This document shows, one piece after another, positions 2,376 through 27,486 of a stretch of DNA of 27,486 bases. The stretch's first letter is position 1; every line of letters begins with the position of its first letter. Where the stretch lies: the IMG/VR virus record IMGVR_UViG_3300025379_000058, positions 1 through 27,486 of that record. One strand, written 5' to 3'. The position numbers and the translations under genes are program-made. The notes beneath the pieces are model-generated. The model was not told the DNA's origin. It worked only from the letters and a program-made list of their open reading frames with translations, and did not search any database. The DNA is from a virus.

Positions 2376-3701
2376 TTATCCTCCGATATACCACTGCCCT
2401 GTGCCGTATTGGCTTACGTTTCCTACTAGCCCATTGTCTCCTGTAGCCGCAGTTAGCGCGGCCTGTTGAGTGGGGTAGAATCCGCTGGACATAGGTTGTG
2501 GCCCTCCGTTGAAAGTGTTGGCGTATGGATTTCCTCCTCCTAGGTTGGAAAGGGCGTTGTTGAAGTTGTACGCCCCGATCCCGCTTCCTAGTGCCGAGGT
2601 CAAGCCGTTGACAAGCCCCTGTTGCATCTGCGTGTTATACGCAGAAAGTGCGTTGTTGGACTGGTACTGCATCAGGTTGCCGTTCATCTGGGTTCCGTAG
2701 TTTCCAGTGATTCCTTGAGCCTGTAGTGCCGCCGCCTGTGCCGCCGCCGCCGCTTCTGCGTTCATCACGCTTTGGTTTGCACCGACTCCGGTGTTGAAGA
2801 CGTTCCCATAGAGGTTCATCAAACCTCCGAAGTTTGTTCCTTGAGTAGAGAGACCTCCTTGAAGTCCGGTCTGTAGCCCAGTAGCGGCGATATTCGTCCC
2901 TAGGGCACCTGCGTTCATGGCCTGACCAGAATTTACGCCAGAGTTGTTGTAGATGGCATTTGGGTTGGTAAGCAGTCCCGCCACCTCCATTCCATACTGT
3001 TGCTGTCCTAGGGACTGGGCTTGCGCCGTTCCCTGCTGTTGCAGTTGCATCGAGGTCAGCCCCAGATCACGAGCGGTAAGGTTGCGACCCAATCCGCTCC
3101 CCCCACCTACACCTGACTGAAGAGCGTTGAATCCGGCGGTGCGACCCACGTTGCCCTGAACATCTGAGGCAATGAGACCCTGTTGCATCTGGCCTGCATT
3201 CTCCATTCCTTGTGAATACTGCTGTTGCCACGAGGGTAACGCATTATTTACCAGGCCAATCTGAGAGTTCTGGGCTTGGTTAGAGAGGTTATTGGCAATG
3301 CCCCCGTAGAGCCCTAGGTTGTTTACGTTAAAGCCCAACCCTGATTGCGCGGCGTTTAGCTCATTCTGTGGAGCCCCCATCGCAAGGTTCGAGATGTCGT
3401 TGCCGTAGTTGCTAAGGTAATTGCCTGTGTTGGTCAGGTAGTTCGTAGAAGCTCCTGCACCTTGAGTTCCGTATGTGTTAGCCAGTCCCTGTTCTGCGGT
3501 GAGGAAGTTCTGACCATACCCGGCAACCTGACCTTGATACTTAGCCGCAAGATCGGATAGTGCCTGTTGTTGTTGCTGTGCTAGGAAATTGTTTGCTCCT
3601 GGGTTGTATGCACTAGGTTTATTTGACTGTCCGATCAAATAGTTAGCCCCAGCCCCTAGGGCACCGACGGCAACCGAAGCTCCAATAGCGGCCATTGTCA
3701 T
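2376..3701 (-). CDS. Gly/Gln/Asn-rich protein with hydrophobic N-terminus, putative DNA-ejection protein
   Basis: A 441-residue protein. Residues 3-25 are a Gly/Ala hydrophobic stretch (AAIGASVAVGALGAGANYLI) of the kind seen at the N-terminus of podovirus ejection proteins that enter the host envelope. The rest is extremely rich in Gln, Asn, Gly and Ala, with repeated GLxxG and QQQ patterns, and almost lacks charged residues. The ATG at 3701 is supported by AAGGAG eight bases upstream. A second ATG lies two codons in. It overlaps the upstream cupin gene by four bases (ATGA). The role in genome delivery is inferred from N-terminal character, composition and operon position, not from a specific homologue. 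Confidence 0.6.
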   Translation of the reverse strand: MTMAAIGASVAVGALGAGANYLIGQSNKPSAYNPGANNFLAQQQQQALSDLAAKYQGQVAGYGQNFLTAEQGLANTYGTQGAGASTNYLTNTGNYLSNYGNDISNLAMGAPQNELNAAQSGLGFNVNNLGLYGGIANNLSNQAQNSQIGLVNNALPSWQQQYSQGMENAGQMQQGLIASDVQGNVGRTAGFNALQSGVGGGSGLGRNLTARDLGLTSMQLQQQGTAQAQSLGQQQYGMEVAGLLTNPNAIYNNSGVNSGQAMNAGALGTNIAATGLQTGLQGGLSTQGTNFGGLMNLYGNVFNTGVGANQSVMNAEAAAAAQAAALQAQGITGNYGTQMNGNLMQYQSNNALSAYNTQMQQGLVNGLTSALGSGIGAYNFNNALSNLGGGNPYANTFNGGPQPMSSGFYPTQQAALTAATGDNGLVGNVSQYGTGQWYIGG

Positions 3702-4670: not shown

Positions 4671-5918
4671 TTAATAAGGTGCAAAGGCTTCTCCCCCGTA
4701 TCGGTCAGCCATGCTGGCTCCGGCATCGTCTGGATAACTCACAAAGTATTTTCGCTTCAAATGCCCATCTATAGGATCGATACCCTCGCCGCGATCGATA
4801 AACGAATACCGCCAAGGTTGGTCGTCGGTTCTCAATCCGCTTCCTTCCATCATCCATTCGTTGAATCGATCGTAGACAGGTTGGGGATTGCTTCCAAATT
4901 GTGCGAACAAAACAGTCTCAACCTCCCTAGGGAGGAAAACCTCACCGCTCGTAACAACCGGAAGAACGTATGTATCAATGGTGCCAACCCACTTGCCGGC
5001 GTTCATCAGAAGTTCTTCGGCGGTATTTACAGCACGTTTTATTTGATCATCGGAGTATTGGAGCCCGTTCGCTAGATCCAATCCGATGCGACCCCAGTGA
5101 TATCCGAAGGTAGATGGATCCAAGGTCTCAAAGTTGTTCTTACGATTTTCATACCTTTGGCGTTGGATTGCGGCTTGTACGTTACGCTCGATGAGCTGTT
5201 GTGCCTCCGCCTTGAAGTTTTGAAGTTCTTTTCCACTGGTGTATTGGACTTCGCTGTCAGCATTCTGCGACAGCATGGAAAGTACAAACCCACGAATAAC
5301 CTCCGCCGGAAGAATCTGGGGAAATGCGTCGGTATCGTTAACCAGTGGGCTGTAGCTCATTACAGCAAGCTCTGCCTGCTCGTTACGAACGATGAAATTG
5401 TAGTGGTCGATAGCCTGCTGGTATCCCTGATTAACAAAACTCTGAAGACGGGCTTTAGGTGCTTTGTAACTTTCAAAGGTTTCCAATCCGATACGCCCCA
5501 CCAAACCACCGAAAGTGTTTTGATCAGACAAAGCCAAAGAAGAAAAAAGGGCGTATCTAGCCCTACTTACGTTATCAACAATGTCACGCTCGACGTAACC
5601 AAAAGCTTTTTTCTCAAGCCCTTCAGCCATATCGATCTGGTTGTTTTCTTCTCGAAAAGCACAAAGAACCATCAACTTTGTTGAATCGATGTCATCAAGA
5701 ATCAACGTGGAGTCCGCAAATCCTGGGTTAGTTCCACCGGCTTGCCACACTAGGGCGGTTTCTAGTGATTCTTCCCTGGCAGAAACAAAGTTATACTGAT
5801 TGATCAGCCTCCGCTGGGCTTCATCCAGGCGAGCGGCCACCCTAGGGTCACCTGGCAACACGCCGTTGTCCACGACGGGTGCAAGAATCTGAAGAGCAGT
5901 TGTGTACAGGGTTGCCAT
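4671..5918 (-). CDS. Connector/tail protein with a three-fold internal repeat
   Basis: A 415-residue, mostly helical protein. It carries three related segments about 130 residues apart: residues 22-50 (ARLDEAQRRLINQYNF), 141-180 (GRIGL, then GYQQAIDHYNFIVRNE) and 276-310 (GRIGL, then AEELLMNAG). Each repeat is followed by beta-type sequence. The third contains FLPREVETVLFAQFG (328-342), a pattern I associate with uncharacterised structural proteins of short-tailed phages. Position between fibres and ejection proteins suits a tail or head-completion role such as a gatekeeper; this is inference. A variant of the intergenic motif lies just before ATG 5918, and no Shine-Dalgarno sequence is seen. 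Confidence 0.6.
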   Translation of the reverse strand: MATLYTTALQILAPVVDNGVLPGDPRVAARLDEAQRRLINQYNFVSAREESLETALVWQAGGTNPGFADSTLILDDIDSTKLMVLCAFREENNQIDMAEGLEKKAFGYVERDIVDNVSRARYALFSSLALSDQNTFGGLVGRIGLETFESYKAPKARLQSFVNQGYQQAIDHYNFIVRNEQAELAVMSYSPLVNDTDAFPQILPAEVIRGFVLSMLSQNADSEVQYTSGKELQNFKAEAQQLIERNVQAAIQRQRYENRKNNFETLDPSTFGYHWGRIGLDLANGLQYSDDQIKRAVNTAEELLMNAGKWVGTIDTYVLPVVTSGEVFLPREVETVLFAQFGSNPQPVYDRFNEWMMEGSGLRTDDQPWRYSFIDRGEGIDPIDGHLKRKYFVSYPDDAGASMADRYGGEAFAPY

Positions 5919-9592: not shown

Positions 9593-10216
9593 CTAATTAG
9601 AATAAACCACAAAGTTCCCAAAAAGAGGCTTGCTGATTAACAGCGCTCCGGTGGATGAAGCGGTATAAAAAGATACAACAAATCCGGTAGTGCTTACGCT
9701 CTGTATGTTTGCCCACCCTTGACCCGTAACTAAAACCGCATAATTTGTATTATTTAGAGGAGTTGTGAATGTTATGCTGTAGGCTTGATATGTAGGATAT
9801 GGAAGCGAGGAGATAGGTACTGTGCTAATTGATCCAAAGTTATATCCACCTCCTTTAGTTAATGCGCCTCCCCCAAGAGGATTAGTAAAAGAACCCCACG
9901 AAGCGGGTATTAAAGAAGCCAAAGTAGAACCAGCTTGAGGCGCAGAGGCGGTAGCGGCATTACCCGTTGTGCTGTTTGAAAGAACAATGGAAGAATTATC
10001 CACAATCTGCCCTAGGGCATTAGCACCTAGGATGTTCACGCTGATCGGAACAGATGCTCCGTTAATCTGAGTTGGGCCTACAGGAACAGAGGCGGCAGAG
10101 CTTACGTTCTGGGGAACCCCAAGATTCAAAACCTGATTAGGTGCTGTTCCTGTAAGGCTTGCAGTTGCCTTAGAGCCAGGAGCTAAAGGTGTGATTGTTC
10201 CTATGGAAATGCTCAT
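9593..10216 (-). CDS. Fibre protein with a GTAPNQ motif and a C-terminal beta tip domain
   Basis: A 207-residue protein. Residues ~8-36 contain KATASLTGTAPNQVLNLGVP, a collagen-like/fibre linker motif also found in the 76-residue neighbour. The middle is low-complexity Ala/Ser/Gly. Residues ~145-207 (AYSITFTTPLNNTNYAVLVT, then a FVVSFYTASSTGALL strand) resemble the small C-terminal tip domain of several phage fibres. The start at 10216 overlaps the stop of the collar-domain fibre gene (TAATG). It is probably a fibre or tip component; no enzymatic feature is seen. Confidence 0.6.
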   Translation of the reverse strand: MSISIGTITPLAPGSKATASLTGTAPNQVLNLGVPQNVSSAASVPVGPTQINGASVPISVNILGANALGQIVDNSSIVLSNSTTGNAATASAPQAGSTLASLIPASWGSFTNPLGGGALTKGGGYNFGSISTVPISSLPYPTYQAYSITFTTPLNNTNYAVLVTGQGWANIQSVSTTGFVVSFYTASSTGALLISKPLFGNFVVYSN

Positions 10217-11169
10217 TATGCTTTGATGCAGTAGAGCATCGCAATGTTGGAGGGGCGTGTTTCCGCGGCAGTCCTAGGAGTGCCATTGGTTCCGTCAGTC
10301 GTGGGACTTGTAACCGTTACGGTACCCGCTCCATTATACGTTACATTAACGCCGTTAATTCCGTATTGACTGTTATTGATTCCGTAATTGTTAAAAGAGG
10401 TTACTCCTATTCCAGGCGCAGGATTCGCGTTTGTTGTGGCGGAATGGTAGTGACCTTGCAGAGCATCTGTTTGCTTAGTTCCAAAAGCGGCAGAATTCCC
10501 TCCATAACCCCTGATGAATTGCCCTTGGAGATCCGGCACGTTGAATGTGGTCGATCCGTCGCCTTGCCCATAAGGGCTTGCAGTAGTTCCTAGCGCAGTC
10601 CAGAGAGCCGAATAGGTGCTCCTAGAATAGGCGGTTCCATCGCAGATCAACCAACCAGAAGGTGTAGTATTGAAAGCAAACGGAAGTATTGCTCCGCTAG
10701 GTATGGCTTGAGCCGCCGTCGGTAGCGTCAAGGACGTACCATCACCGTAGAACTTGGTAGCGGTAACGGCACCAGGGACAGTTAAAGCTCCCTGCGTAGT
10801 CCAGCTAGGTGCTCCAGCCGATAAAAGACCAGGAGTAACTGCTCCTAGGGCAATCGTAGATGTGGTGACTGCGCCGGTAGCAATCGCATTGGTATTTACC
10901 GCACCAGTAGCAATAGCACTAGCAGAGATAGCACCGTTGGCAACCGTCGGAGTATTCCAGCTCCCGTTAGAGTATACGTTAAGGGTATTGGCTCCGGTGT
11001 TGTACCAAAGAGCCGTTCCATCAGTAGGGACACCAACGGAAGTAGGCTGAACAAACAACTGCCTAGATGATGGAGGAGCGGATAAGTATGAGGAAAGAAG
11101 ATTAAGGAGAGCCTGTGGAGTACCAGGAAAATTCGTTCCAGTAGGTAAGGTTCCGGGGATTAAGGCCAT
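10216..11169 (-). CDS. Tail fibre with phage tail collar domain
   Basis: A 317-residue protein. Residues ~155-215 contain a phage tail collar domain (PF07484 type): FAFNTTPSGWLICDGTAYSR, then GDGSTTFNVPDLQGQFIRGY. The C-terminus ends TRPSNIAMLYCIKA, the usual end of such fibres. Residues ~85-115 hold a run of ten-residue repeats (AIATGAV, AIATGAV, TIALGAV) that likely form a beta shaft. The domain is typical of short fibres that contact the cell. The ATG at 11169 has no Shine-Dalgarno sequence but is preceded by a full GTGTAATAACC motif ten bases upstream, so this gene may begin its own transcript for the fibre block. Confidence 0.85.
   Translation of the reverse strand: MALIPGTLPTGTNFPGTPQALLNLLSSYLSAPPSSRQLFVQPTSVGVPTDGTALWYNTGANTLNVYSNGSWNTPTVANGAISASAIATGAVNTNAIATGAVTTSTIALGAVTPGLLSAGAPSWTTQGALTVPGAVTATKFYGDGTSLTLPTAAQAIPSGAILPFAFNTTPSGWLICDGTAYSRSTYSALWTALGTTASPYGQGDGSTTFNVPDLQGQFIRGYGGNSAAFGTKQTDALQGHYHSATTNANPAPGIGVTSFNNYGINNSQYGINGVNVTYNGAGTVTVTSPTTDGTNGTPRTAAETRPSNIAMLYCIKA
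10845..10940 (-). repeat. In-gene tandem repeat encoding Ala/Thr/Gly/Val repeats
   Basis: About three imperfect 30-base units within the collar fibre gene, each containing a form of gcaccagtagcaatagca on the plus strand. They encode the AIATGAV-type decapeptide repeats. Such repeats can expand or contract and change shaft length. Confidence 0.6.
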
Positions 11170-18013: not shown

Positions 18014-20373
18014 TATTCCTGATCGGGTTGAGCCATCGGGACGGTCGTAGGTACTGCCGGCATACCGGCGGCTTTAACTTTAGCGGCGGTTTCAGCATCT
18101 CGCAGAGCGAGCTTCTGAGAAACTTCGGCTTGCTTCAAAGCCATCTCCTGCTGATGACGTTGTGCTTCCATCTGCATCTTGGCTTGGCTTTCCAAAATCT
18201 GCTGTTTCAGTTTTGGCGACATCGCATCGGCTTCCGCGGCCTTCTGCTGAAGCATCTTTATCTGAGCCTGTTGTTGCTCTGCATTACGTTGAGCCTGTGC
18301 CTGCTGGGCTTTCTGAGCGTTGATCTGCTGGGCTTGTAGCTGATCTTGCAAACGCTTTGCAGTTGCATTGAGTTGCTGAAGTCGCTGGCGCATCAAACCT
18401 ACCTGCTGTCCTCGTAGCTTGTCTTGCCCTAGTCTCTGAACGTGTTGTGCTGTATGCGGCAAAAATGCTTCCATCGCCATAAGGGAAGCCTTGGGATCTG
18501 CTTGACCCTGCCCTAGGGCTTGATCGAGTTCGTCAAGGGCCTGCAAGTGACGACCGGCATGAATAAAGTCATCTTCACCAGGAGATACGGGAATGGTGGT
18601 TCCATGGCTCATGGTGGCGTTTTCCAGAATAGCAATCTTATCGTCAATAGGGGGACGAAGAGGTTGATCAATAGGTTTGGCGTACCGATTAACCGCTTCT
18701 TGACCTACAAGTGCGGCAATGTTGTCTCGTAGAAGATGTGCCTGACCTTCCTGATCGAGAGCACCATACATGGACATCATCTGGGAAAGCACCTGACTAC
18801 GCATGGCGGGGCTTCCGTTACCGACGGCACGGACAGGCCAAACAGCAGTAACGTGGTAGATAGCTTCAGCGGGAACGCCTCGCTCCATGCAACGCTTCTT
18901 AAACGCTACCGCTTCCTTGCCACCCGGCTCCAAAGGAGAAGAGTCCCTGCGGCTGAGTCTACGAAAAACCTCCCAAAGAAGACGCTTCCAAGGATGGTAG
19001 AACAAGTTGATGGATGCACTGGTAAGAGTTGCTTCTTGTTGAAGTTGGGCGCGGACTTCAAAAGCGGTGCGAGCTTGTCCTTCGGGAGTAATGGCACGGC
19101 TCTGAAACCCGATCGTATTGTTCTGAAGAGTCTGCGTCATGTCTGCCAATACCGGCATCATGTTGGCGCGGAAATCAGGAACCGCTTTTTCAACGATTTT
19201 AAGGCCGGCAGGGAAAAGGGCGTAAGGCCCAAAGTAGTTCAGCGTCAGATCCTCTAGGGAACGAGTGCTGGCATCACTGGGCTGGACGATGAGTGCGGAA
19301 GACAGAAGAGCCCCATCACTCATGCCACACCGCATACGATTGATGAGCTGGATGTGAGGGTAAATCTTGTACCCAAGTCCTCGAATTCCGTGGTAGCAAC
19401 CATTTCCAATTCCGTAGGTGAAAGTAACAAAGCAACGAGTTGGGGCATCAAAACGCTCGAACTTCTCGTACAAGAACTGCTCGTTTGCCTCACCGAATCC
19501 GGTGTCTGCCGGAAGCGGGTCTTTAAGGAAAATCATGTGAGAGACTTTGCCTGAAAACTCTTGAACCCACATATGGACAACCTTGACCCTCTTGGCCTTG
19601 GAATTGCCATAGAGTAGATCGTTGTTCTTGAGTTCGATTTCGAGTTTTTCCCAGTCAGCAAGATATGGGGTAGGAGTGGCGAGGCAGGCGTGCATAAGTG
19701 CCTGCTTTACCATATCTACATTCCATCCTAGTTCCTCGGCTACTTCAGGATTTCGGATAAAAGCATAAAGCTGATGGGCTAGGTATTCACGCTCCACGGT
19801 TGCAACTTCAATCTCAGCCTCGCTGGCTTTTGTTCCGCGGGGCATCTTGAACTCATTGAGTCCGGTTACACGATAACGCCAGTCGGTCTCATCCTCGAAG
19901 TAAGCAACTCCCACTCCATGTGAAACAAACTGGTCTGAAAGAAGCTGATGGTTGAACTCAAACTCCGTCCAGTTCATCAGCGTATGATGGAACTCTTCGG
20001 CGATAATCCCTTCCCATTCGACCCGCTGTTCATCCGTTCCGTAGTCAACATGAACCGAGGCTAGGCGAGGAACACTCGAAGTCAGATCGTAATACTGAGC
20101 TAAAGCCTGATCTTTGACTGCGGCGGCAATTCCGAAATCAATGTTGGTTCTTTCTGATTGTCCGATTTCGACTAGGTCATCGGGATTGAAAGGAGGGGCA
20201 CCTCCAAACATGGCATCCACCAAAGAACGGTTTTTTGAGCTACCAAGATCGCTTGTCCAAATGGTGTCGTAGATGCTACGAGCCGCATCTACATCAGCAA
20301 CTCTACGTTCAGGAACTTCTCCTGTTACTGGATCGAGTCCAGCAATATCTAAAGGGGCAGTCGAGATCTCCAT
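18013..20373 (-). CDS. Portal protein with long C-terminal coiled coil
   Basis: A 786-residue protein. The core (residues ~40-560) has portal-type features: GQSERTNIDFGIAAAVKDQA, FVSHGVGVAYFEDETDWRYR, FTYGIGNGCYHGIRGLGYKI, and TAFEVRAQLQQEATLTSASI leading to FYHPWKRLLWEVF. From about residue 640 the chain is a Gln/Ala/Lys-rich coiled coil. A large portal with a Gln-rich helical tail is known in N4-like and other short-tailed phages. It would form the dodecameric DNA gate at the capsid vertex. ATG 20373 overlaps the stop of the glycosyltransferase-like gene (TAATG). Closest relative not determined. Confidence 0.85.
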   Translation of the reverse strand: MEISTAPLDIAGLDPVTGEVPERRVADVDAARSIYDTIWTSDLGSSKNRSLVDAMFGGAPPFNPDDLVEIGQSERTNIDFGIAAAVKDQALAQYYDLTSSVPRLASVHVDYGTDEQRVEWEGIIAEEFHHTLMNWTEFEFNHQLLSDQFVSHGVGVAYFEDETDWRYRVTGLNEFKMPRGTKASEAEIEVATVEREYLAHQLYAFIRNPEVAEELGWNVDMVKQALMHACLATPTPYLADWEKLEIELKNNDLLYGNSKAKRVKVVHMWVQEFSGKVSHMIFLKDPLPADTGFGEANEQFLYEKFERFDAPTRCFVTFTYGIGNGCYHGIRGLGYKIYPHIQLINRMRCGMSDGALLSSALIVQPSDASTRSLEDLTLNYFGPYALFPAGLKIVEKAVPDFRANMMPVLADMTQTLQNNTIGFQSRAITPEGQARTAFEVRAQLQQEATLTSASINLFYHPWKRLLWEVFRRLSRRDSSPLEPGGKEAVAFKKRCMERGVPAEAIYHVTAVWPVRAVGNGSPAMRSQVLSQMMSMYGALDQEGQAHLLRDNIAALVGQEAVNRYAKPIDQPLRPPIDDKIAILENATMSHGTTIPVSPGEDDFIHAGRHLQALDELDQALGQGQADPKASLMAMEAFLPHTAQHVQRLGQDKLRGQQVGLMRQRLQQLNATAKRLQDQLQAQQINAQKAQQAQAQRNAEQQQAQIKMLQQKAAEADAMSPKLKQQILESQAKMQMEAQRHQQEMALKQAEVSQKLALRDAETAAKVKAAGMPAVPTTVPMAQPDQE

Positions 20374-21152
20374 TACTTTGATTTCTTAGAGGGCTTGGCT
20401 GATTTGTTCTCCAAAAGATCGATAAGAGACTCGTCCTTACACCCATGCACAACGGCAATAGCGTCGGTAACATACTTGGGTGGGTGATTGGGATCCATAG
20501 CCGTGCAGGCGATCATTCCGTCGGAAGTGCGAACGTATTCCTTGCTCTTCCAGTTGTTGATCATCTGCTTGCTGTTGTGGATACAACCCTTCATTTCCCA
20601 GCGCAGATAGATATCCCAAGGCTGTGCTTCCTTATGAGTATGAATCGAATCAAATAGCTGTGAGGCACGAACAAAATTTGCAGGGTAGATTCCACTTCCA
20701 TTCATATGTTGTCCGTCCTTCCTAATGAACTCTTTGGTATCCGGCTTCCTTACGATGGAATCTTCTACGACGCCCATAAAGGGTTTCTGTGCCAGGTTGT
20801 ACTCAGTCTGGAGATCGTCCAGCCAAGAAGACTTCATGGGTACGTTGTCGGCTTCAAACCAATAAAAAGGGAGACGGTTTCCTCTCGCGTAGACATACCC
20901 CGCGGTTTTCTTGAACATGAAATTTGCGGAAGAAGGCCAACCCAGCTCATGATCCTGATCAAGGACGTAAATTCCAGCAGAAGCAAAAGTTCCTTTAAGG
21001 ATGTTCTGGATTTCTTCAGCTACGCTTTTCTGGTTGAGTGGGCAAGAAACCAATAAATGATGGTTAGCTCCGCCTCCTAGGGTAGAAATCCAGTTTGCTA
21101 GTCGTAAAGCCAACCCAGAATCGATTCGGCTAATGGGAAGAATGAGAAGCAT
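20373..21152 (-). CDS. Glycosyltransferase-like (GT-A type) protein
   Basis: A 259-residue protein. The N-terminus (LLILPISRIDSGLALRLANW, then HHLLVSCPL) fits a nucleotide-sugar transferase Rossmann half. FYWFEADNVPMKSSWLDDL (residues ~96-114) is placed like the metal-binding DxD motif, here as E-x-D (Glu100, Asp102). A later acidic/aromatic segment AQPWDIYLRWEMKG could be the acceptor side. There is no transmembrane segment. Proteins of this kind occur beside portal genes in environmental phages. It could glycosylate a virion protein or host surface glycan; the donor is unknown. The gene lies 18 bases after a GTAATAACC motif and is coupled to the portal gene by TAATG. Confidence 0.55.
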   Translation of the reverse strand: MLLILPISRIDSGLALRLANWISTLGGGANHHLLVSCPLNQKSVAEEIQNILKGTFASAGIYVLDQDHELGWPSSANFMFKKTAGYVYARGNRLPFYWFEADNVPMKSSWLDDLQTEYNLAQKPFMGVVEDSIVRKPDTKEFIRKDGQHMNGSGIYPANFVRASQLFDSIHTHKEAQPWDIYLRWEMKGCIHNSKQMINNWKSKEYVRTSDGMIACTAMDPNHPPKYVTDAIAVVHGCKDESLIDLLENKSAKPSKKSK

Positions 21153-21169
21153 GAATAAAGAGGTTAAGC

Positions 21170-21178
21170 GGTTATTAC
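21170..21178 (-). promoter_or_regulatory. GTAATAACC motif before the glycosyltransferase-like gene
   Basis: A nine-base copy on the minus strand followed by GCTTAACCT, giving the tandem AACC layout, 17 bases before ATG 21152. It overlaps the stop codon of the winged-helix gene. Confidence 0.45.
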
Positions 21179-21474
21179 TTTTTAGTCAAACGCTGGATGA
21201 GTGTTGGACGATAAAAGTTTATAGGTCTGCGAACTCCATTATTTCCGACTACGCTGACCTGTATCTTTTCCATCTTTCCTTCCTCTACCAGCTTGTTGAG
21301 GCGATTGTTCATCGTAGACTGAGGAAGATCTGCCTCAGCTTTGAGATCGTATAAGCTCTTCCAACCCTGCTCTCTGTAGGTATCTACAGAAGCCGTTATT
21401 AGTTCTGTTTTTATAGCATCCCATGCAGATGCTAGGAGGTCATGCTCGGGTGGATTCACTTTCTTCTGGGTCAT
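21175..21474 (-). CDS. Small winged-helix DNA-binding protein
   Basis: A 99-residue protein. Residues ~40-75 give a helix-turn-helix (SLYDLKAEADLPQSTMNNRL), followed by helix NKLVEEGKMEKIQV and a beta wing with RRPINFYRP. This is the layout of small MarR/DprA-type winged-helix regulators. It may control late phage transcription or bind host promoters. It overlaps the end of the phosphoesterase gene by 35 bases, so it is translated from the same message. Its TAA stop forms part of the GTAATAACC motif before the next gene. Confidence 0.65.
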   Translation of the reverse strand: MTQKKVNPPEHDLLASAWDAIKTELITASVDTYREQGWKSLYDLKAEADLPQSTMNNRLNKLVEEGKMEKIQVSVVGNNGVRRPINFYRPTLIQRLTKK

Positions 21475-22276
21475 AAGTCAATAGTTGCGTGGATGGAAGA
21501 CCTCCATCTGGAGTGGCGTCCCAATCCAGAATGGCAATGCCAGGTCGGCAAATTGAGTCTCCGACTACTTTGTGTCCGTATCTGGTAAGAAGTTGCCACG
21601 CTGGCGTGACTAGGAACAGCGCGTGTCCATCCGAGTAATATCCTCCTGTGTGGCGATGACCTCGTAGATACACCCTAGGGACACGCTGGCCTACCCTAGC
21701 GTAGTTCAGTCTGGCGTTGCCCATCGTAATCGACATGGCTCCGGCCTCAAGGTAAGCACGACCTGCGGTGGGCATATGATGAGCTACGTCAAGAAGTGTT
21801 CCGTTAATCTCAATAAGTCCCTTGTCTCCACACCACTCACCGCCAAGTTCTTTGCAGATGACTTTCTCGAAGTCTCCCACATGGCACTCAGTACCAGCGG
21901 TAAAATAAGTCTTGAAACAAGACTCCACAAGAGGGCGCAAACATTCGGTTGCGGCGGCGGCATGATCAATGTTCTTTGCCACTACAATCTCGGTAGTCCC
22001 ATGATGCCGGCCTTCGATACAATCTCCGTTGACGATTACGACAAACGGCCTGCCCTTAAAGTGATTTACAGCTTTATTGACCGCATCAAGCCAGCACTTC
22101 CAAAGCCATTGCTGATGAAGATTGTTACCCAGCTTAATCTGATTTCCGGTCTCAGTTTCAAAACCATCAGGCCATAGCCCCACGGAAGAACCGCAGTGAA
22201 GATCGGAAACAACGACGGCTCCTCCGATCCTAGGATTTACTGGCGGCAGTTTAACTGCTTTGGTTTTCTTTGCCAT
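21440..22276 (-). CDS. Calcineurin-like metallophosphoesterase
   Basis: A 278-residue protein with all main motifs of the Metallophos superfamily (PF00149): VVVSDLHCGS (Asp25, His27), IVNGDCIEGRHHG (Asn83, Asp85), TAGTECHVGDFE (His132), DVAHHMP (His166, His167) and LRGHRHTGG (His207, His209). It is expected to bind two metal ions and hydrolyse a phosphoester; the substrate could be DNA, a nucleotide or a small molecule. The N-terminus is basic (MAKKTKAVKLP). The start follows a 44-base gap after the endolysin gene, with no Shine-Dalgarno sequence. Similar enzymes are found in other short-tailed phages near structural genes. Confidence 0.85.
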   Translation of the reverse strand: MAKKTKAVKLPPVNPRIGGAVVVSDLHCGSSVGLWPDGFETETGNQIKLGNNLHQQWLWKCWLDAVNKAVNHFKGRPFVVIVNGDCIEGRHHGTTEIVVAKNIDHAAAATECLRPLVESCFKTYFTAGTECHVGDFEKVICKELGGEWCGDKGLIEINGTLLDVAHHMPTAGRAYLEAGAMSITMGNARLNYARVGQRVPRVYLRGHRHTGGYYSDGHALFLVTPAWQLLTRYGHKVVGDSICRPGIAILDWDATPDGGLPSTQLLTYDPEESESTRA

Positions 22277-22320
22277 GAGAGTCGCAGGGAATATGGATGT
22301 AATAACCTTTTATGCAAGTA

Positions 22321-22902
22321 TTACTTTTCTAAATCAGAAAGTTTTTTCCACCAGTGATCAAGTGAAACATCCCTTGCCAGCCACCCAGCAAGGAACTTTC
22401 GGTCTACCGGATTCTTATACGCAATTCTCCGATATCGTGCGTCTGCGGCTGACTCTATGTCCTCGGCTAGGCGATAAGGGTTTACTTGATTGGCGGATCC
22501 TAGGGTATCGGGGCCAAGTTTTCCATCGATGGTGATTGTAGTTTGAGCCTCTATAGCTTCTTGAAGGAGCCTAACTGAATTGCCTAGCCCCATGTTGACA
22601 GCAAAGTTTGCGGCTACTTCACAAACGGGAAACTGCAAAGAAGAGAGAAAGTTCCAAGCATCTTTCAAATACGCCTGGACAACGTCTTCCGCCGTCCAGC
22701 TATCGAAAGGAAACGTCGGATGGCTGGCTTCATCAATGCCGCAAACAGTCCTTCCTCCACTATCACCTGGCACATTTTCAATCCGAATAGTCACACCATC
22801 CGACTCGTAAGCACACTCCCACCCTAGGACAAAACCTAGCCACTTAACAAACCTAGGAGACTGCCCTTCTGCGGCGTAATTCAAGATCTCTTGGATTGTC
22901 AT
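22321..22902 (-). CDS. Endolysin, glycoside hydrolase family 108 (N-acetylmuramidase) type
   Basis: A 193-residue protein with the GH108 pattern: catalytic Glu29 in LGWECAYE and GDSGGRTVCGIDEASHP (residues 46-62), followed by a C-terminal peptidoglycan-binding part (PF09374 type) with NFAVNMGLGNSVRLLQEAIE, IDGKLGPDTL and DRKFLAGWLARD. It should cleave the glycan backbone of murein at lysis. There is no signal peptide, so export needs a holin. It is the last gene of the lysis cassette, overlapping the holin-like gene by four bases (ATGA). An insertion between the Glu and the GDSGG loop (YESDGVTIRIENV) is longer than in typical members. Confidence 0.85.
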   Translation of the reverse strand: MTIQEILNYAAEGQSPRFVKWLGFVLGWECAYESDGVTIRIENVPGDSGGRTVCGIDEASHPTFPFDSWTAEDVVQAYLKDAWNFLSSLQFPVCEVAANFAVNMGLGNSVRLLQEAIEAQTTITIDGKLGPDTLGSANQVNPYRLAEDIESAADARYRRIAYKNPVDRKFLAGWLARDVSLDHWWKKLSDLEK

Positions 22903-23198
22903 AATTTTGAGGGGAGCGATGAAGTTTCTTGAGCCGGAGTTGCTTCAACACCCTTTTGAACAATCTTGCTACCTCTATTGATAGTGAACCATCCGGCCAA
23001 AACAGCACCAATCGCAGTAGGATTAAAGGGATTCTTGGGGTCGTGGTAATGCGACCAAAGTGTAAAAACCACGACGGAGACAATGCACAGCCCTAGGATG
23101 AAATCGTGAAACCAAAAAGGAGGTCGAAGGCTAGAGGGTGTTCCGTCGGACTCGGATAACGCCCTGCGAATCCAGTCTACGATACCGGAGAAGTTCAC
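22899..23198 (-). CDS. Holin-like small membrane protein
   Basis: A 99-residue protein with a charged N-terminus, a clear membrane segment at ~31-48 (FILGLCIVSVVVFTLW) and a second, weaker one at ~60-75 (PTAIGAVLAGWFTI), then a polar tail. Size and position directly before the endolysin fit a two-span holin that opens the inner membrane. It has ATGA overlaps with both neighbours. The 159-residue neighbour is also membrane-bound, so either one may be the holin. Confidence 0.6.
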   Translation of the reverse strand: MNFSGIVDWIRRALSESDGTPSSLRPPFWFHDFILGLCIVSVVVFTLWSHYHDPKNPFNPTAIGAVLAGWFTINRGSKIVQKGVEATPAQETSSLPSKL

Positions 23199-23674
23199 CG
23201 AAGAGATTGTTTAGCGTGATGAAACCACCTAGTTGCCTCGTCCCAAGAAGGAACAGTAGGTATAAGCTTCCCGATTTCATCGATAAAATGATTTAGAACG
23301 TACATACTAGCAAAGAAACAAAGAGCGTAGGCTACCGCACTTGCAATCCAACCCTCGACGGCTGGGAAGTTTCTGATGATGAGTCCTGCAATCACTGTCC
23401 CCACATAAAGAGCAAAAAAGAAAGCACCTATCTCTACCACTACTTCAGTACGATGCTCCCATAGATCTCCGCGCTGTGCCTGCTTGGTATCGTCTTCGAC
23501 ATACCAGTTTAACTGCCCTTCAACTTTCAAATAGTCTTGTTGGGCGTGCAAAAGATCCGTTTTTTCCTGCGCTGATAGAACTTCTATTTGATTGAGCAGG
23601 TTTATTTGCTGTTTGGAAAGTGGGCTTGCCAATAGACCGGCGGAAAGCACAAAAAAGAAAAATATACTTTTCAT
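23195..23674 (-). CDS. Membrane protein of the lysis cassette with N-terminal signal and two spans
   Basis: A 159-residue protein. Residues 1-17 (MKSIFFFFVLSAGLLAS) look like a signal peptide. A Gln/Leu-rich coiled coil follows at ~20-60, then two membrane spans at ~82-102 (GAFFFALYVGTVIAGLII) and ~110-132 (ASAVAYALCFFASMYVL), and a short polar tail with several Trp. It could be a second holin, an antiholin or a structural lysis factor. It overlaps both neighbouring genes by four bases. I do not recognise a named family. Confidence 0.55.
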   Translation of the reverse strand: MKSIFFFFVLSAGLLASPLSKQQINLLNQIEVLSAQEKTDLLHAQQDYLKVEGQLNWYVEDDTKQAQRGDLWEHRTEVVVEIGAFFFALYVGTVIAGLIIRNFPAVEGWIASAVAYALCFFASMYVLNHFIDEIGKLIPTVPSWDEATRWFHHAKQSLR

Positions 23675-23883
23675 CGAGAGTGTTCGAGAATGATGACCTT
23701 CTGGTCAATCTGATCGTTGATTGAAGTGGCCCCTTGTATGTATGTGTCGGGGGATGAGGTATGCCGCTTGGAAAGTGGATCAGAGGAACACCCCACTAGG
23801 ATAGAAAGAGCAATCGTAATCAGTCCAAGTAAGAAACTCGTCATAAGAAACGCGGCAACAGCTTCTTTTGCTAACGGTGTCAT
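23671..23883 (-). CDS. Small lipoprotein, o-spanin candidate
   Basis: A 70-residue protein with a hydrophobic segment at ~12-31 and a lipobox LVGC (Cys32). Residue +2 after the Cys is Ser, which favours transfer to the outer membrane. The mature part is 38 polar residues. Location in the lysis cassette and pairing with a membrane-anchored coiled-coil gene fit an outer-membrane spanin subunit. It overlaps both neighbours by four bases. The long n-region before the lipobox is unusual; it may be an inner-membrane protein instead. Confidence 0.55.
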   Translation of the reverse strand: MTPLAKEAVAAFLMTSFLLGLITIALSILVGCSSDPLSKRHTSSPDTYIQGATSINDQIDQKVIILEHSR

Positions 23884-24164
23884 TTGCTAGGGGCGATCAA
23901 GTGATCTTCAATCCTTCGTGTTCGGGAATCAATTTGCTGTATTAGTGCTAGAGCCGTTGCAAGTGCCTCACGGCGTTGGGAGTTATCTAACTCGATAGCG
24001 GAAAGACGGGTTTCATGTTGTTTGTTGATCTCTTCAATCATGGTCACCCTGGTCGGTAATAGTGCGTAAGACCAAAAAATTGCCCCAAATGCGGCGACAC
24101 CGGAGAGCCCTCCCAAAAGAGGAAGATGTCTCATTATGAAGTTTGGTTTCTCTGGGGTATCCAT
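23880..24164 (-). CDS. Membrane-anchored coiled-coil protein, i-spanin candidate
   Basis: A 94-residue protein with one N-terminal membrane span at ~14-33 (LPLLGGLSGVAAFGAIFWSY) and then a coiled coil to the end (IEEINKQHETRLSAIEL, then ALALIQQIDSRTRRIEDHL). This is the shape of an inner-membrane spanin, which with the next gene's lipoprotein would fuse or disrupt the envelope. ATG 24164 opens the lysis cassette; a full GTGTAATAACC motif lies 31 bases upstream, with a five-codon frame (MNHAS) between. The assignment is by topology, not by homology. Confidence 0.55.
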   Translation of the reverse strand: MDTPEKPNFIMRHLPLLGGLSGVAAFGAIFWSYALLPTRVTMIEEINKQHETRLSAIELDNSQRREALATALALIQQIDSRTRRIEDHLIAPSK

Positions 24165-24195
24165 GAGGACTTATGATGCGTGATTCATAGTGTGT

Positions 24196-24206
24196 GGTTA
24201 TTACAC
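24196..24206 (-). promoter_or_regulatory. GTGTAATAACC motif before the lysis cassette
   Basis: A full 11-base copy on the minus strand, 31 bases before ATG 24164, in the 56-base gap after the APS-kinase-like gene. It is followed nine bases later by a five-codon frame (MNHAS). Probably a promoter or leader element. Confidence 0.5.
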
Positions 24207-24220
24207 CTGCAAATTGTTTT

Positions 24221-24655
24221 CTAGGCAAGAAGGTTTTGACGGTTCTCAGATACAATCTCAGGCGTGAGAGGGTCTTCGTACCCAACTTCTTGATCGTATG
24301 TTCGGTAGTTCTCTTCCGGGCACTTGACCAAGACTTCAATGAACTTGATTCCTGCTTCTTGGCACTTAGTTCGCACCAGGTTTCGGCAAGCGCGAAAAGG
24401 GGAAATCATAGAAACGATTGTATAGATTCCTTGAGTAGCGGCCAAGATGGCAACTTCACTGACCCTGCGTACATTTTCATTCCTGTCCGACTCCGAAAAC
24501 CCGAGGTCAAAAGACAAAGTAGCTCGAATGTCATCCCCGTCCAAAAGCAATACAGAGTGCCCTAGGGAGTAGAGTAGTTTGCGATACTCTTCTGCCAGAG
24601 TAGATTTACCGGCACCAGAGCGTCCGGTGAGCCATATCACCGGAGCAATTTTCAC
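24221..24655 (-). CDS. Shortened APS-kinase-like (CysC-like) P-loop kinase
   Basis: A 144-residue protein matching adenylylsulfate kinase over its first ~110 residues: Walker A GRSGAGKST (11-19), LLLDGDDIRATLSFDLGFSE (36-55; the usual DGDN is DGDD), SDRNENVRRVSEVA and MISPFRACRNLVR. APS kinase turns APS into PAPS, the sulfo donor. Typical CysC has ~200 residues. Here the lid region with the RDPKGLYKKAR and FTG motifs is missing, replaced by a short link before YEDPLTPEI. The GTG start at 24655 overlaps the stop of the sulfotransferase-like gene (GTGA). This is strong context for a joint role, though another small-molecule kinase is possible. Confidence 0.7.
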   Translation of the reverse strand: MKIAPVIWLTGRSGAGKSTLAEEYRKLLYSLGHSVLLLDGDDIRATLSFDLGFSESDRNENVRRVSEVAILAATQGIYTIVSMISPFRACRNLVRTKCQEAGIKFIEVLVKCPEENYRTYDQEVGYEDPLTPEIVSENRQNLLA

Positions 24656-25443
24656 GAAGCAGATACTTGTTTGTATAACGCCACATCGTCAGCGTAAAAG
24701 TTCTGTAGCGTGGCGATCTGGTCTGCCGTGAGGGTTGGCTTCTTAGTGGTATCTGTTACATTCACGGAAGGAAGGGGGGTGGGTAGCCCAAGGGCAACCG
24801 CCATGAGCGTGAGGTCTTTGGCAAAGTCAAAATACACAATGTTTGACGGAGCGGGGATGCCAACAAGATTGACCTGTGGCATGAAGTGAGGATTTAGCTT
24901 TGTTTTATCCTGCTGAACCAACCAAGCAATAAACTGATCTACTGGAAGCCAGCAAGGAACACCACCTGTTTGAAGGGCATAAGATGATACAAACCTATCG
25001 ACAGGATCACGGATAATAGCGTAGGGAGTTCCTACTGGTGTGGAGGTTATCGGAACACCTATCAAATTAACCACAGACTGATTATTCCCATTCTCTTTCC
25101 CAAAATAGGTTGTCGCAATAAGGCCAGTAAAAGTAGATGAAGCTGACCTAAATGTTATGCAATAGGAAGTGTTGTTTGGGAGGTTAATATACCTTGATGG
25201 GGTGGTATTGTTCTGGGTTATATCTCCCCGATAAAAAGCATCCGTTGCATAATCATAGTAATCCCCAACCGAAGCATATTTCCTTCTCTTGGAAGCGTCT
25301 TGAAAGGTTTGTACAAAGTCACCACCTCCGCAGAAGGATTGGCAAAAGTTTATTCCAGATTGTTCGTTAACAGCTTCTGCATCCGCAACAACAATTAAAT
25401 CTGTTACTAAATTATTAACATCTAATTGTGCAAAAATAGCCAT
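24652..25443 (-). CDS. Sulfotransferase-like protein with phage-type N-terminal domain
   Basis: A 263-residue protein in two parts. Residues 1-75 (MAIFAQLDVNNLVTDLIVVA, then SKRRKYASVGDYYDYATDAF) match a short domain common in cyanophage and other marine-phage structural proteins. Residues ~88-262 resemble Sulfotransfer_2 (PF03567): AIIRDPVDRFVSSY (143-155) is the 3'-phosphate-binding motif of PAPS enzymes, NPHFMPQV matches the usual D-x-HW-x-PQ region, and IVYFDFAKDL and LTADQIATLQNFYADD fit the C-terminal part. The 5'-phosphosulfate loop is FRSASST, with Arg at the usual Lys. The target could be a fibre, a capsule or another glycan. Confidence 0.6.
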   Translation of the reverse strand: MAIFAQLDVNNLVTDLIVVADAEAVNEQSGINFCQSFCGGGDFVQTFQDASKRRKYASVGDYYDYATDAFYRGDITQNNTTPSRYINLPNNTSYCITFRSASSTFTGLIATTYFGKENGNNQSVVNLIGVPITSTPVGTPYAIIRDPVDRFVSSYALQTGGVPCWLPVDQFIAWLVQQDKTKLNPHFMPQVNLVGIPAPSNIVYFDFAKDLTLMAVALGLPTPLPSVNVTDTTKKPTLTADQIATLQNFYADDVALYKQVSAS

Positions 25444-25445
25444 AA

Positions 25446-26210
25446 TTATGAAATATAAGTACCACTTCCAGTATAGGTTAAAATAGTGTTAGATCCACTT
25501 GTTGTTATTGTTGGAGATCCAGTTGTTTTACCACTATATGAAGATGTTGGAATTGAAAGAATAACAACACCATTATTGCCTCCGGGTTGTTGAACTGATC
25601 CAACATAGATAGCTGTTGCGCCAGCACCATAAGATCCCTGACCCGCAGTACCCGATGCGTAATATGGAGGAACTTGTAAATTTACGATTCCAGCACCTCC
25701 ACCTGCATAATAAACAGATGATCCAGTTATTGAGCTAGTTAATCCATTTCTTCCATTTCCTCCACGAGTGTTTGCCACAGGCGCACCACCAGTTCCACCA
25801 GCACCAGCCGCACCAGAACCTCCATAAGAAATTCCTAAAGAATTTGGATTGCCGCCAGATGCAGTAGCAAGTACAGAAGCCCCAAGTTTTATTTGTGAAG
25901 GCTGACCAGATCCAGCAATTTGAGTGCTATTATTTGTATTGTTTCCCGGCAATCCACCTCCATTACCCCCATAGCCAACAGTAATGGTGTAAGTATTTCC
26001 AGCGTAAAAAGGTAACGTAGCTTGCACTACTGCTCCCCCATCTCCTCCAGCGTAATAATAAGGATCGTTTGTGTCATTTACACTTGTTGCCCCTGCACCG
26101 CCTCCAACCAATAAATAATTGACAACATAAGGGTATGCCCCCCCCGATAAGGAGCTTTTTTGAATATAAAACCCGTGGTTAAGGTCTATTATTGCTTTTT
26201 GTATGCTCAT
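25446..26210 (-). CDS. Glycine-rich tail fibre/tip protein
   Basis: A 254-residue protein with a central ~150-residue Gly/Ala/Asn/Ser-rich region (VNYLLVGGGAGATSV; GGSGAAGAGGTGGAP), interrupted by short hydrophobic strands. The YLLVGGGAGA opening and the NNGVVILSIP strand are typical of glycine-rich fibre or tip proteins that recognise receptors, comparable in style to T-even gp38-like adhesins. Base composition is AT-richer than in the head genes. It overlaps the upstream LamG-like gene by four bases (ATGA) and stops two bases before the sulfotransferase-like gene. Confidence 0.65.
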   Translation of the reverse strand: MSIQKAIIDLNHGFYIQKSSLSGGAYPYVVNYLLVGGGAGATSVNDTNDPYYYAGGDGGAVVQATLPFYAGNTYTITVGYGGNGGGLPGNNTNNSTQIAGSGQPSQIKLGASVLATASGGNPNSLGISYGGSGAAGAGGTGGAPVANTRGGNGRNGLTSSITGSSVYYAGGGAGIVNLQVPPYYASGTAGQGSYGAGATAIYVGSVQQPGGNNGVVILSIPTSSYSGKTTGSPTITTSGSNTILTYTGSGTYIS

Positions 26211-27061
26211 GTTAAACCAAGGGCTAAAGTGTTCATTATTCCTGCTAAGGCAATCAATCCTTGTCCGCTTCCTCCCATAGAGGTTCCCATCGAATAATAG
26301 AAAATGTAACCACTAAAATTTGAATAAGTAAAAGATGGATCCGCAAATAAATAAGTTGGTGAATTAGATGCAGGAGAATAACTATCTGCATATTGGGTGG
26401 CTGATCCCGTACCAGTTCCTGAATAAGCCCTTACCTGTGTAACACTATTATCCCTATTTAACCCAAACGAAGAAAAATTAGTTGTACTTACATTTCTAAC
26501 AAAGCTAGGTGAGGTTAAAGAAGAAAGTGCCGCATTTGGGTTCCCACTAGATAGCAGAATTGAATCCCCCGTATTTATTCCTGATCCCATAAGAGCTTGT
26601 GAGCCAACTCTTTGGTAATAGCCAACTTGGATATGTTTGTTATTTCCGTCAACACCATTACGTCTGTTTAAGTCAATGTATTTAGATCCATCACCTAGTA
26701 AACCCCTTAATGGGTTAAAGTCCGATGAAACAAATCCATGATTTATAGGGGTATTTCCGACGATGGGAACAAAGCACCCATTGATTGCACTTCCGGCACC
26801 TCCAGACCCATCTTTGAAACCAATTAAAAATCCTGTCTGTGCGATTGCTCCAGAGATAGTGCTGTTTGAATAAATTGATTGAAATGCAGTATCAAAAACT
26901 GGCTGGTTAAGAGGTGATATATCTGCCCCTGCCGCAAGCACCCTTTGATACCAAGCATAACCCTGAGAGCTTTTCCAATTATAAGCAAAAGAGCCGCCAG
27001 TAAGGGAATACTTATTGACGTTTAATCCTTTACCAGCCAGCCCTATAAGAGCAGAACCCAT
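26207..27061 (-). CDS. LamG-like tail fibre/receptor-binding protein
   Basis: A 284-residue protein related to the fibre at 5951-6886: WYQRVLAAGADISPLNQ, HGFVSSDFNPLRGLLGDGSK, then ...NKHIQVGYY and FADPSFTYSNFSGYIFYYSM. This is a concanavalin/LamG-type jelly roll found in many phage fibres and likely to bind a glycan. It lacks the carbohydrate-binding-like module of its paralogue and has its own N-terminus (GSALIGLAGKGLNVNKYSLT). The base composition is AT-rich. It is coupled at both ends (TAATG at 27061, ATGA at 26207). It probably acts with the glycine-rich protein as a receptor-binding pair. Confidence 0.65.
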   Translation of the reverse strand: MGSALIGLAGKGLNVNKYSLTGGSFAYNWKSSQGYAWYQRVLAAGADISPLNQPVFDTAFQSIYSNSTISGAIAQTGFLIGFKDGSGGAGSAINGCFVPIVGNTPINHGFVSSDFNPLRGLLGDGSKYIDLNRRNGVDGNNKHIQVGYYQRVGSQALMGSGINTGDSILLSSGNPNAALSSLTSPSFVRNVSTTNFSSFGLNRDNSVTQVRAYSGTGTGSATQYADSYSPASNSPTYLFADPSFTYSNFSGYIFYYSMGTSMGGSGQGLIALAGIMNTLALGLT

Positions 27062-27486
27062 TACGAAAGCTCAGTTATATTTAGTGTTCCGGCAGAAGTG
27101 AAGATTCCTTGAACAGCACCAGTCCATCCAGTAATGGTAACTGTGTCGCTAGTTCCAAGGCCGACACTAAAATTAGTTGCTGAAGCCGTTCCAGTACCAA
27201 GCAAAACAAACACGCTTCCCCCACCTTGATTGTACAACACAATTCCTTTACGGCTTGAGTTAGCCGCAAGCACTTGTGCAGAAGAAGTGGAAGTGAATGT
27301 GGTGACTGAAGATGTGGAAGAAGCTGGTAGGGTGACTGCTTGACTTGAAGGAAAATTGCTAACAGTTGCAGAAACAGAAGGGGTTCCGCTGATGGTAGCA
27401 GTAACATTTCCAGAAACAGGTTGTGTAGCTGGGAAATTAGAAACGGAAACACTTCCACCTGTTCCGCCACCGCCTATGTTGTTAAC
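27061..27486 (-). CDS. 3' part of a tail fibre gene running off the right edge
   Basis: The frame is open from 27486 to its TAA at 27061, giving 141 residues of the C-terminus. It has a Gly-rich stretch (GGGGTGGSVSVSNFPATQPV) and two fibre repeats of the type VSNFPATQ/VSNFPSSQ, then a compact beta domain (SSRKGIVLYNQGGGSVFVLL, GTLNITELS). The NFPATQ repeat is a recurrent phage fibre linker and also occurs as TFPATQ in the 6886-9033 fibre. A GTG at 27273 could be read as a start but lies inside the continuing frame, so it is not chosen. The stop overlaps the next start (TAATG). Confidence 0.65.
   Translation of the reverse strand, partial: VNNIGGGGTGGSVSVSNFPATQPVSGNVTATISGTPSVSATVSNFPSSQAVTLPASSTSSVTTFTSTSSAQVLAANSSRKGIVLYNQGGGSVFVLLGTGTASATNFSVGLGTSDTVTITGWTGAVQGIFTSAGTLNITELS

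Follow-up and report, generated by a model that had tools for sequence, protein, structure and literature searches.

The overlapping transferase and kinase genes

The window analysed here is an IMG/VR virus record (IMGVR_UViG_3300025379_000058), taken over its whole length of 27,486 bases, in which the longest open reading frames (ORFs) lie nearly all on the minus strand. It carries a sulfotransferase-like fusion gene (24652–25443, minus strand, ATG start, 263 amino acids (aa)) and, overlapping its end, the gene of a lid-deleted P-loop kinase of the adenosine 5'-phosphosulfate (APS) kinase clade (24221–24655, minus strand, GTG start, 144 aa). The transferase stop TGA and the kinase start GTG share GTGA at 24655–24652 (junction sequence GCTTCGTGAAAATT), which confirmed the overlap that an earlier note on this DNA had described. 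Residues 1–71 of the transferase (25231–25443, minus strand) matched phrog_7759 (PHROGs, unknown function) with an expect value (E) of 2.1e-12 and form a separate phage domain fused ahead of the Sulfotransfer_2-type domain of residues ~92–263. This domain and the loss of the kinase lid go beyond what the earlier note had contained.

The whole transferase matched Sulfotransfer_2 (PF03567) at E 0.0087 and 16.7 bits, and the transferase domain alone at 17.5 bits, both below the gathering cut-off of 22; the protein is therefore called Sulfotransfer_2-like by profile and fold, and not a Pfam member by score. A family profile of 21 rows (the window and 20 relatives, some of them bacterial) matched heparan sulfate (HS) 2-O-sulfotransferase at E 2.6e-5, and PF03567 was matched at E <= 0.01 by 21/21 of the aligned family members. 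Profile-profile comparison of the nearer transferase family with 12 phage Sulfotransfer_2 proteins gave a probability of 97% and E 9.9e-11. Six distant sulfotransferase relatives, 24–34% identical, were found in a scan of genome contigs for prophage hosts.

A full-length transferase model from a 6-row alignment was of low confidence (predicted local distance difference test, pLDDT, 36.7), and the 21-row alignment cut at residue 92 was used instead, giving a predicted structure of residues 92–263 with a pLDDT of 91.0 and a predicted template modelling score of 0.87. When this model was compared using VIA-align, sulfotransferases made up 50/50 of the best entries among 171 chains with Z >= 2, with HS2ST as the best match (Z 9.2, root-mean-square deviation 3.9, 152 aligned residues), HS6ST at Z 8.8 and Teg12, which we take to be a sulfotransferase, also among the matches. 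VIA-align warns of common arrangements under Z 8, a level that Z 9.2 barely exceeds, and the 21-row sequence profile was therefore also relied on. Foldseek against PDB was weak alone (best E 0.031) and stronger against viral models (best E 4.3e-5), where the best matches were phage sulfotransferases. Structure prediction with a Foldseek search, a check that the earlier note had suggested, thus returned a sulfotransferase fold, and its Sulfotransfer_2-like assignment held by family profile, profile-profile comparison and model, with the single-sequence Pfam score under the cut-off.

Both motifs expected to bind 3'-phosphoadenosine 5'-phosphosulfate (PAPS) were located on the minus strand. The 5'-phosphosulfate-binding loop was placed by alignment at ITFRSASSTFT (residues 96–106, 25126–25158), with Arg99 standing where canonical members have the Lys of IPKTGGTS and where most distant relatives carry Lys. 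The 3'-phosphate-binding motif RDPVDRFVSSY, already named in the earlier note, is present at residues 145–155 (24979–25011), with Arg145 and the helix Ser153 eight residues apart. Arg99, Ala101-Ser102-Ser103, Arg145 and Ser153 were invariant in 12/12 family rows, window included. In a first alignment the segment INLPNNTS had been taken as the PAPS loop; it was rejected, as the trimmed alignment placed FRSASST there and the strand-loop-helix order in the models favours FRSASST. According to excerpts of a review (PMC11625862), the sulfotransferase class is defined in practice by a Lys or Arg in the loop, a helix Ser and the sheet, and mycobacterial (Mt) Stf0 has alanine and arginine in the 5' loop, Arg being a known variant. 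Profile, alignment and predicted structure together support residues ~92–263 as a Sulfotransfer_2-type fold with both PAPS-binding motifs intact.

HS 2-O- and 6-O-sulfotransferases (PDB 4ndz, 3f5f, 5t03) share with the window's protein the fold (Z 9.2, 9.0, 8.8), the 5' loop and the 3' RDPxxRxxS motif; the window's protein differs in its minimal domain of 172 residues, Arg instead of Lys in the loop, the unconserved usual His and the N-terminal phage domain. The best viral structure matches were the phage-borne sulfotransferases E3SP23 of Prochlorococcus phage P-SSM7 and A0A0E3HI70 of Synechococcus phage ACG-2014f, which are 14 and 19% identical to the window's protein and, at 196 and 207 aa, probably too short to hold the extra domain, judging from length. 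Further phage-borne sulfotransferases, of Synechococcus phages S-SKS1 and S-SRM01, were found with the transferase of another viral locus (L055) and not with the window's; they are Sulfotransfer_3-type relatives and have no annotated kinase within 5 kb, where most neighbours are unnamed.

APS kinase normally makes PAPS, the sulfate donor of sulfotransferases. The kinase of the window matched Pfam APS_kinase (PF01583) at E 1.5e-36 and 126.1 bits, over the cut-off of 21.1, and scored 132.3 bits against the apsK equivalog TIGR00455, under its cut-off of 138.7. In a tree it was placed on the APS-kinase side with Salmonella CysC (support 100/100, long branch), and the earlier assignment as a CysC-like P-loop kinase was right. 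Its best PHROGs match was phrog_10255 (E 1.4e-8), and a phrog_10255-type phage kinase was ruled out by the tree, in which that type stands on the opposite side with 100/100 support. The motifs shared with CysC (PDB 7yq0, 3uie, 4bzq; M. tuberculosis CysC) are the P-loop, LDGD, LGFS, DRxENxRR and ISP. By alignment, the kinase retains the P-loop Lys17, the LDGD Asp41 and the APS-adenine holders Phe53 and Arg58, together with the ISP motif; the equivalence of these four residues to Lys456, Asp480, Phe492 and Arg497 was counted from the residue numbers in PMC4373884, and the lid was placed by motif.

The lid stretch of 13 lidded kinases in the alignment (~DPKGLYKKARxGxIxxFTGID) is missing from the kinases of the window and of a close relative, L003 (loci in other records are cited by such numbers), about 18 lid residues being deleted and the C-terminus shortened as well. 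Since ATP and APS are held by this lid, its loss makes PAPS production by the window's kinase doubtful. Between the window and L003, the only pair compared, dN (non-synonymous changes per site) was 0.06 and dS (synonymous changes) 0.34 for the kinase gene, and 0.16 and 1.0 for the transferase domain. Judging from this single pairwise comparison of sequences, both the transferase domain and the kinase gene are under purifying selection, and the kinase gene is not decaying. The lid is also shortened in another protein of the APS-kinase clade, at 4995–5459 of L029, which keeps Cys and Arg at the lid start and is followed, at the contig end, by a sulfotransferase-like ORF with Sulfotransfer_3 under the cut-off. 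In many viral records, kinases of the phrog_10255 type are fusions of CysC-like and cytidylyltransferase-like parts, and those of cultured phages lie in DNA-metabolism blocks (L190 4992–5732, Stenotrophomonas phage Bhz60; L189, DLP_6).

Recurrence of the pairing in other viruses

CysC-like kinases were found by a scan at 48 viral loci, for which 46 further records were tested (L010 and L011 share records with L003 and L004). A sulfotransferase over the Pfam cut-off was present in 19/46 of these kinase records (Sulfotransfer_3 in 15, Sulfotransfer_2 in 5); at E <= 0.01, Sulfotransfer_3 was found in 18 and Sulfotransfer_2 in 7. Among 50 random viral records, Sulfotransfer_3 was found in 0 and Sulfotransfer_2 in 1. 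The difference (19/46 vs 1/50, Fisher p 1.2e-6) was obtained with a control consisting of the first 50 of 80 viral records found by a 14-base word, which was not habitat-matched and had a median record length of 14.2 kb vs 21.4 kb (p 0.07). With similar kinases collapsed at 80% identity, a sulfotransferase was found in 12/25 clusters vs 1/50 records (p 2.1e-6). The co-occurrence that the earlier note had expected in other phages was thus borne out in the wider survey. No sulfotransferase over the cut-off was detected in 27/46 of the records with CysC-like kinases, many of the surveyed records being fragments in which absences are weak.

In 8/46 records (L023, L026, L027, L030, L034, L036, L055, L057; 6 kinase clusters) the sulfotransferase match lay <=0.6 kb from the kinase on the same strand, and in six (L041, L049, L054, L059, L060, L066) it lay 2–4 kb upstream of the kinase, again on the same strand. 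The remaining five (L022, L028, L042, L052, L058) had it farther from the kinase, two of them on the opposite strand. The cleanest independent case is L023, where a Sulfotransfer_3 gene overlaps that of a lid-keeping APS kinase and a repeat-rich fibre-like protein follows. L023 and L026/L027 share with the window a same-strand sulfotransferase directly beside an APS kinase; they differ from it in that the kinase lid is kept, the sulfotransferase is of Sulfotransfer_3 (L023) or canonical Sulfotransfer_2 type (L026/L027), and their records have no phrog_7759 match. The pairing is real and recurrent in other viruses.

Other arrangements were seen around these genes. A five-gene run at 3186–5953 of L034 encodes a phrog_7759 protein, a 2-oxoglutarate (2OG)-Fe(II) oxygenase, a Sulfotransfer_3 protein, a fusion of APS-kinase-like and cytidylyltransferase-like parts and a small protein that is DUF2061-like by eye; its oxygenase and sulfotransferase could serve hydroxylation and then sulfation of a fibre. 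In L036, phrog_7759, sulfotransferase and kinase genes also stand together. DUF2061 membrane proteins (PF09834) follow directly after CysC-like kinase genes in L026 (5511–5942) and L066 (5429–5674), and the kinases of L028, L030 and L031 have hydrophobic extensions that are DUF2061-like by eye, a family that Pfam did not give for L030, the one scanned. A reverse transcriptase (RVT_1; L055 2447–3574) lies just upstream of one sulfotransferase-kinase pair and an Lcl_C-domain protein (L057 132–1103) upstream of another, settings that are possibly those of a diversity-generating retroelement. In Stenotrophomonas phage Bhz60 the CysC-like kinase gene lies between NADAR and DNA methyltransferase genes. 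A random control record (G095, behind L109, 46000–55500; L160) carries six Sulfotransfer_2 genes over the cut-off in ~7.5 kb, with genes between them that are glycosyltransferase-like by eye, and this run is possibly a viral glycan-sulfation cluster. Of the scanned entries, L013 (OQ572406.1, 'Pseudomonas phage Y4') looks bacterial, with cysC and, by eye, sulfotransferase-like and glycosyltransferase genes, and L015 (AGRM01000002.1), in the phage collection, is a Salmonella contig.

The two components have separate precedents in published work. Excerpts of PMC10580990 call the role of phage sulfotransferases unclear, those of PMC9529941 name cysC among viral auxiliary genes, and a passage of PMC10829341, citing Iyer et al. 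2013, reports sulfotransferase-based modification systems in phages. Similar speculation on sulfation of adhesins or surface glycans has been made for giant viruses, as stated in part of PMC11625862. Within the titles and abstract openings covered by a literature search, which Iyer et al. 2013 lay outside, no phage sulfotransferase and APS kinase unit and no phage fibre sulfation were found. Phage sulfotransferases and viral cysC are each known from surveys.

Fibre-type neighbours and the phrog_7759 domain

Directly upstream of the transferase lies a gene for a glycine-rich protein (25446–26210, minus strand, Gly_rich_2, 22% Gly), probably a fibre or tip protein, preceded by a gene at 26207–27061 (minus strand) that matched phrog_17104, of unknown function, and is given a fibre role from its position only. 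No tail family was matched by either gene, and from the glycine-rich domain and the position both are probably fibre-type. The earlier note had set the pair directly after fibre genes. The position stands, and the fibre identity comes from Gly_rich_2, phrog_17104 and place; a clear tail-fibre match was obtained for just one of the window's genes, which is located elsewhere (10216–11169).

On the minus strand the two upstream genes, the transferase and the kinase are followed by a block at 22321–24164, made up of four genes for small proteins (23880–24164, 23671–23883, 23195–23674 and 22899–23198) and an endolysin gene (22321–22902; PG_binding_3, phrog_315), all on the minus strand. By eye the small proteins are membrane- or spanin-like, and no family match was obtained among those tested. 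A sigma-70-type promoter of the pair's own was not found above chance, with 4 sites in 22000–27486 vs 9.3 expected.

The transferase family in IMG/VR comprised 16 loci in 15 records, with more distant members in a later search. Across 18 loci, window included, the gene directly upstream of the transferase encoded more than 20% Gly in 13 (~8 distinct proteins, several loci being near-identical), and in 4 (L068, L076, L172, L177) a long protein of 527–1025 aa that is fibre-like by eye; in one (L175) it lay outside the visible sequence. When the window was aligned to L003 with blastn, the two were 98% identical over 18655–25032 and 27335–27486 and divergent between, the divergent segment taking in the fibre-type genes as well as the transferase's first half. 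Position 25032, inside the transferase gene, is a probable recombination point at which the fibre-type genes would be swapped together with this first half.

Synechococcus phages Bellamy and S-RSM4 encode their phrog_7759 relatives as small stand-alone proteins close to genes for tail fibres, and the relative in phage DSL-LC04, also small, adjoins 2OG-Fe(II) oxygenase and lectin-like genes.

Proposed function and rival explanations

The reading put forward here, to which we give somewhat less than an even chance, is that a PAPS-dependent sulfotransferase targets the fibre or tail of the phage itself, or a glycan attached to it, with the modified kinase as a helper. The pair would serve the receptor-binding cassette as a tailoring unit and would be expressed late. 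During virion assembly the transferase would move sulfate from PAPS onto a residue, or an attached glycan, of a fibre or tail component, and the phrog_7759 domain may bring it to that substrate or leave it there; the sulfate would give the adhesin a different surface charge. The host would be the main source of PAPS, and the lidless kinase would be an accessory that either retains some PAPS production through a changed mechanism or has switched to another substrate. A bolder version, which we consider unlikely, is a virion sulfation system in which a tail-domain-guided sulfotransferase sulfates the adhesin tip and the phage kinase raises PAPS, with comparable cassettes, with or without a 2OG-Fe(II) oxygenase, in the fibre regions of many environmental phages.

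Several results weigh against sulfation of the virion by such a pair. No kinase was found in 13/15 of the transferase-bearing records, an APS kinase being present in two (L003, L004); the fragment L012, which starts inside its kinase gene and falls outside the 15-record count, also has one, and L076 ends within the transferase gene, its downstream side lying outside the record. The kinase is absent from longer transferase records as well (35 to 138 kb; L007, L008, L068, L069, L072, L075). From these counts the transferase is what stays constant, with the kinase as an addition, and the arrangement does not require PAPS of the phage's own making. Most of the transferase's nearest relatives thus do not show the co-occurrence that the earlier note had proposed to survey, and of its pairing of a PAPS maker with a PAPS user the families stand, while self-made PAPS is weakened by the lost lid and the kinase-free relatives. 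In the window and L003 the lid counterparts of Arg559, Lys562 and Phe576 in M. tuberculosis CysC have been lost or altered; in that enzyme, according to parts of PMC4373884, Arg559 stacks on ATP, Lys562 contacts the gamma-phosphate and Phe576 stacks on APS, lid closure is essential, and a lid-loosening single Cys-to-Ser change abolishes activity.

The remaining points on this side concern the transferase and its surroundings. The His that lies between the PAPS motifs is present in 11/12 of the phage Sulfotransfer_2 proteins of one alignment and invariant in those of another; the window's family does not conserve it, having Asn in the window itself and Pro, Leu or other residues in relatives, so that the catalytic base (His or Glu) is not assignable from the alignment. 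PHROGs gave no tail assignment for the tested proteins adjoining the transferase in L172 and L177. The phrog_7759 domain is common in random viral records (5/50) and shows no enrichment where CysC-like kinases are present (3/46 records; L034, L036, L057), and thus does not by itself point to sulfation. Its use as a marker of sulfation cassettes was not upheld by the same counts; all three of the kinase records that have it also have a neighbouring sulfotransferase.

The transferase might act instead on a host surface glycan (capsule or lipopolysaccharide), late in infection or in lysogens, so as to block further phage adsorption or alter release, the virion not being its target. The best structural matches, HS 2-O- and 6-O-sulfotransferases, are polysaccharide enzymes, and lysogenic conversion is conceivable given a 413-aa protein of L003 that matches Phage_integrase weakly, at 17.9 bits against a cut-off of 27.1. 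The transferase, however, stands between fibre-type and lysis-type genes and not next to the integrase-like gene, it is fused to a tail-region domain, and no sigma-70-type promoter of its own is evident; we regard this explanation as improbable. A little less probable again is a non-catalytic transferase domain, serving within the tail tip or adhesin as a module that binds 3'-phosphoadenosine 5'-phosphate, nucleotides or sulfated glycans. The unconserved His, the fusion to a tail-region domain and the position of the first half of the transferase in the divergent segment shared with the upstream genes (blastn, 25032–27335) all suit such a module, whereas the residues that contact PAPS (Arg99, Arg145, Ser153) do not vary in any of the 12 rows and would be unneeded by a mere glycan binder. 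A further point against the module is that, in excerpts of the review cited above (PMC11625862), the catalytic base of sulfotransferases sits in non-conserved loops and its position varies in the superfamily.

For the kinase, another substrate than APS (a nucleotide, a nucleic-acid base, a sugar or a protein) comes close to an even chance. This would be compatible with sulfation of the fibre by the transferase, or the two genes might be loosely connected, for example in nucleic-acid modification, a variant in line with the passage of PMC10829341 on phage sulfotransferase-based modification (citing Iyer et al. 2013). The missing or changed lid residues and the score under the apsK equivalog cut-off (132.3 vs 138.7 bits) favour a changed substrate, as do other phage CysC-like kinases that lie beside DNA methyltransferase and NADAR genes or in a DNA ligase block. 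Against it stand the long-branched but fully supported place on the APS-kinase side of the tree, apart from the phrog_10255 type, the retained Lys17, Asp41, Phe53, Arg58 and ISP motif, and the gene overlap with the transferase. That the kinase is a cysC for reductive sulfur assimilation, an auxiliary gene by chance beside a gene of the fibre region, is very improbable. Although cysC has been reported among viral auxiliary genes (excerpts of PMC9529941), PAPS reductase (PAPS_reduct) was unmatched in 11/11 records searched, mostly fragments, so that there is no visible sulfite-making set; the kinase lid is missing, and sulfotransferases recur in records with CysC-like kinases.

Returning to the PAPS-dependent transferase with its helper kinase, the lid loss gives reason to doubt viral 'cysC' calls as auxiliary metabolic genes where the lid is missing. 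The recurrent same-strand pairing, here in a probable receptor-binding region, leads to a testable proposal, namely that phages sulfate their adhesins or surface glycans. If this is true, sulfation would be a further way for phages to adjust how they bind their hosts.

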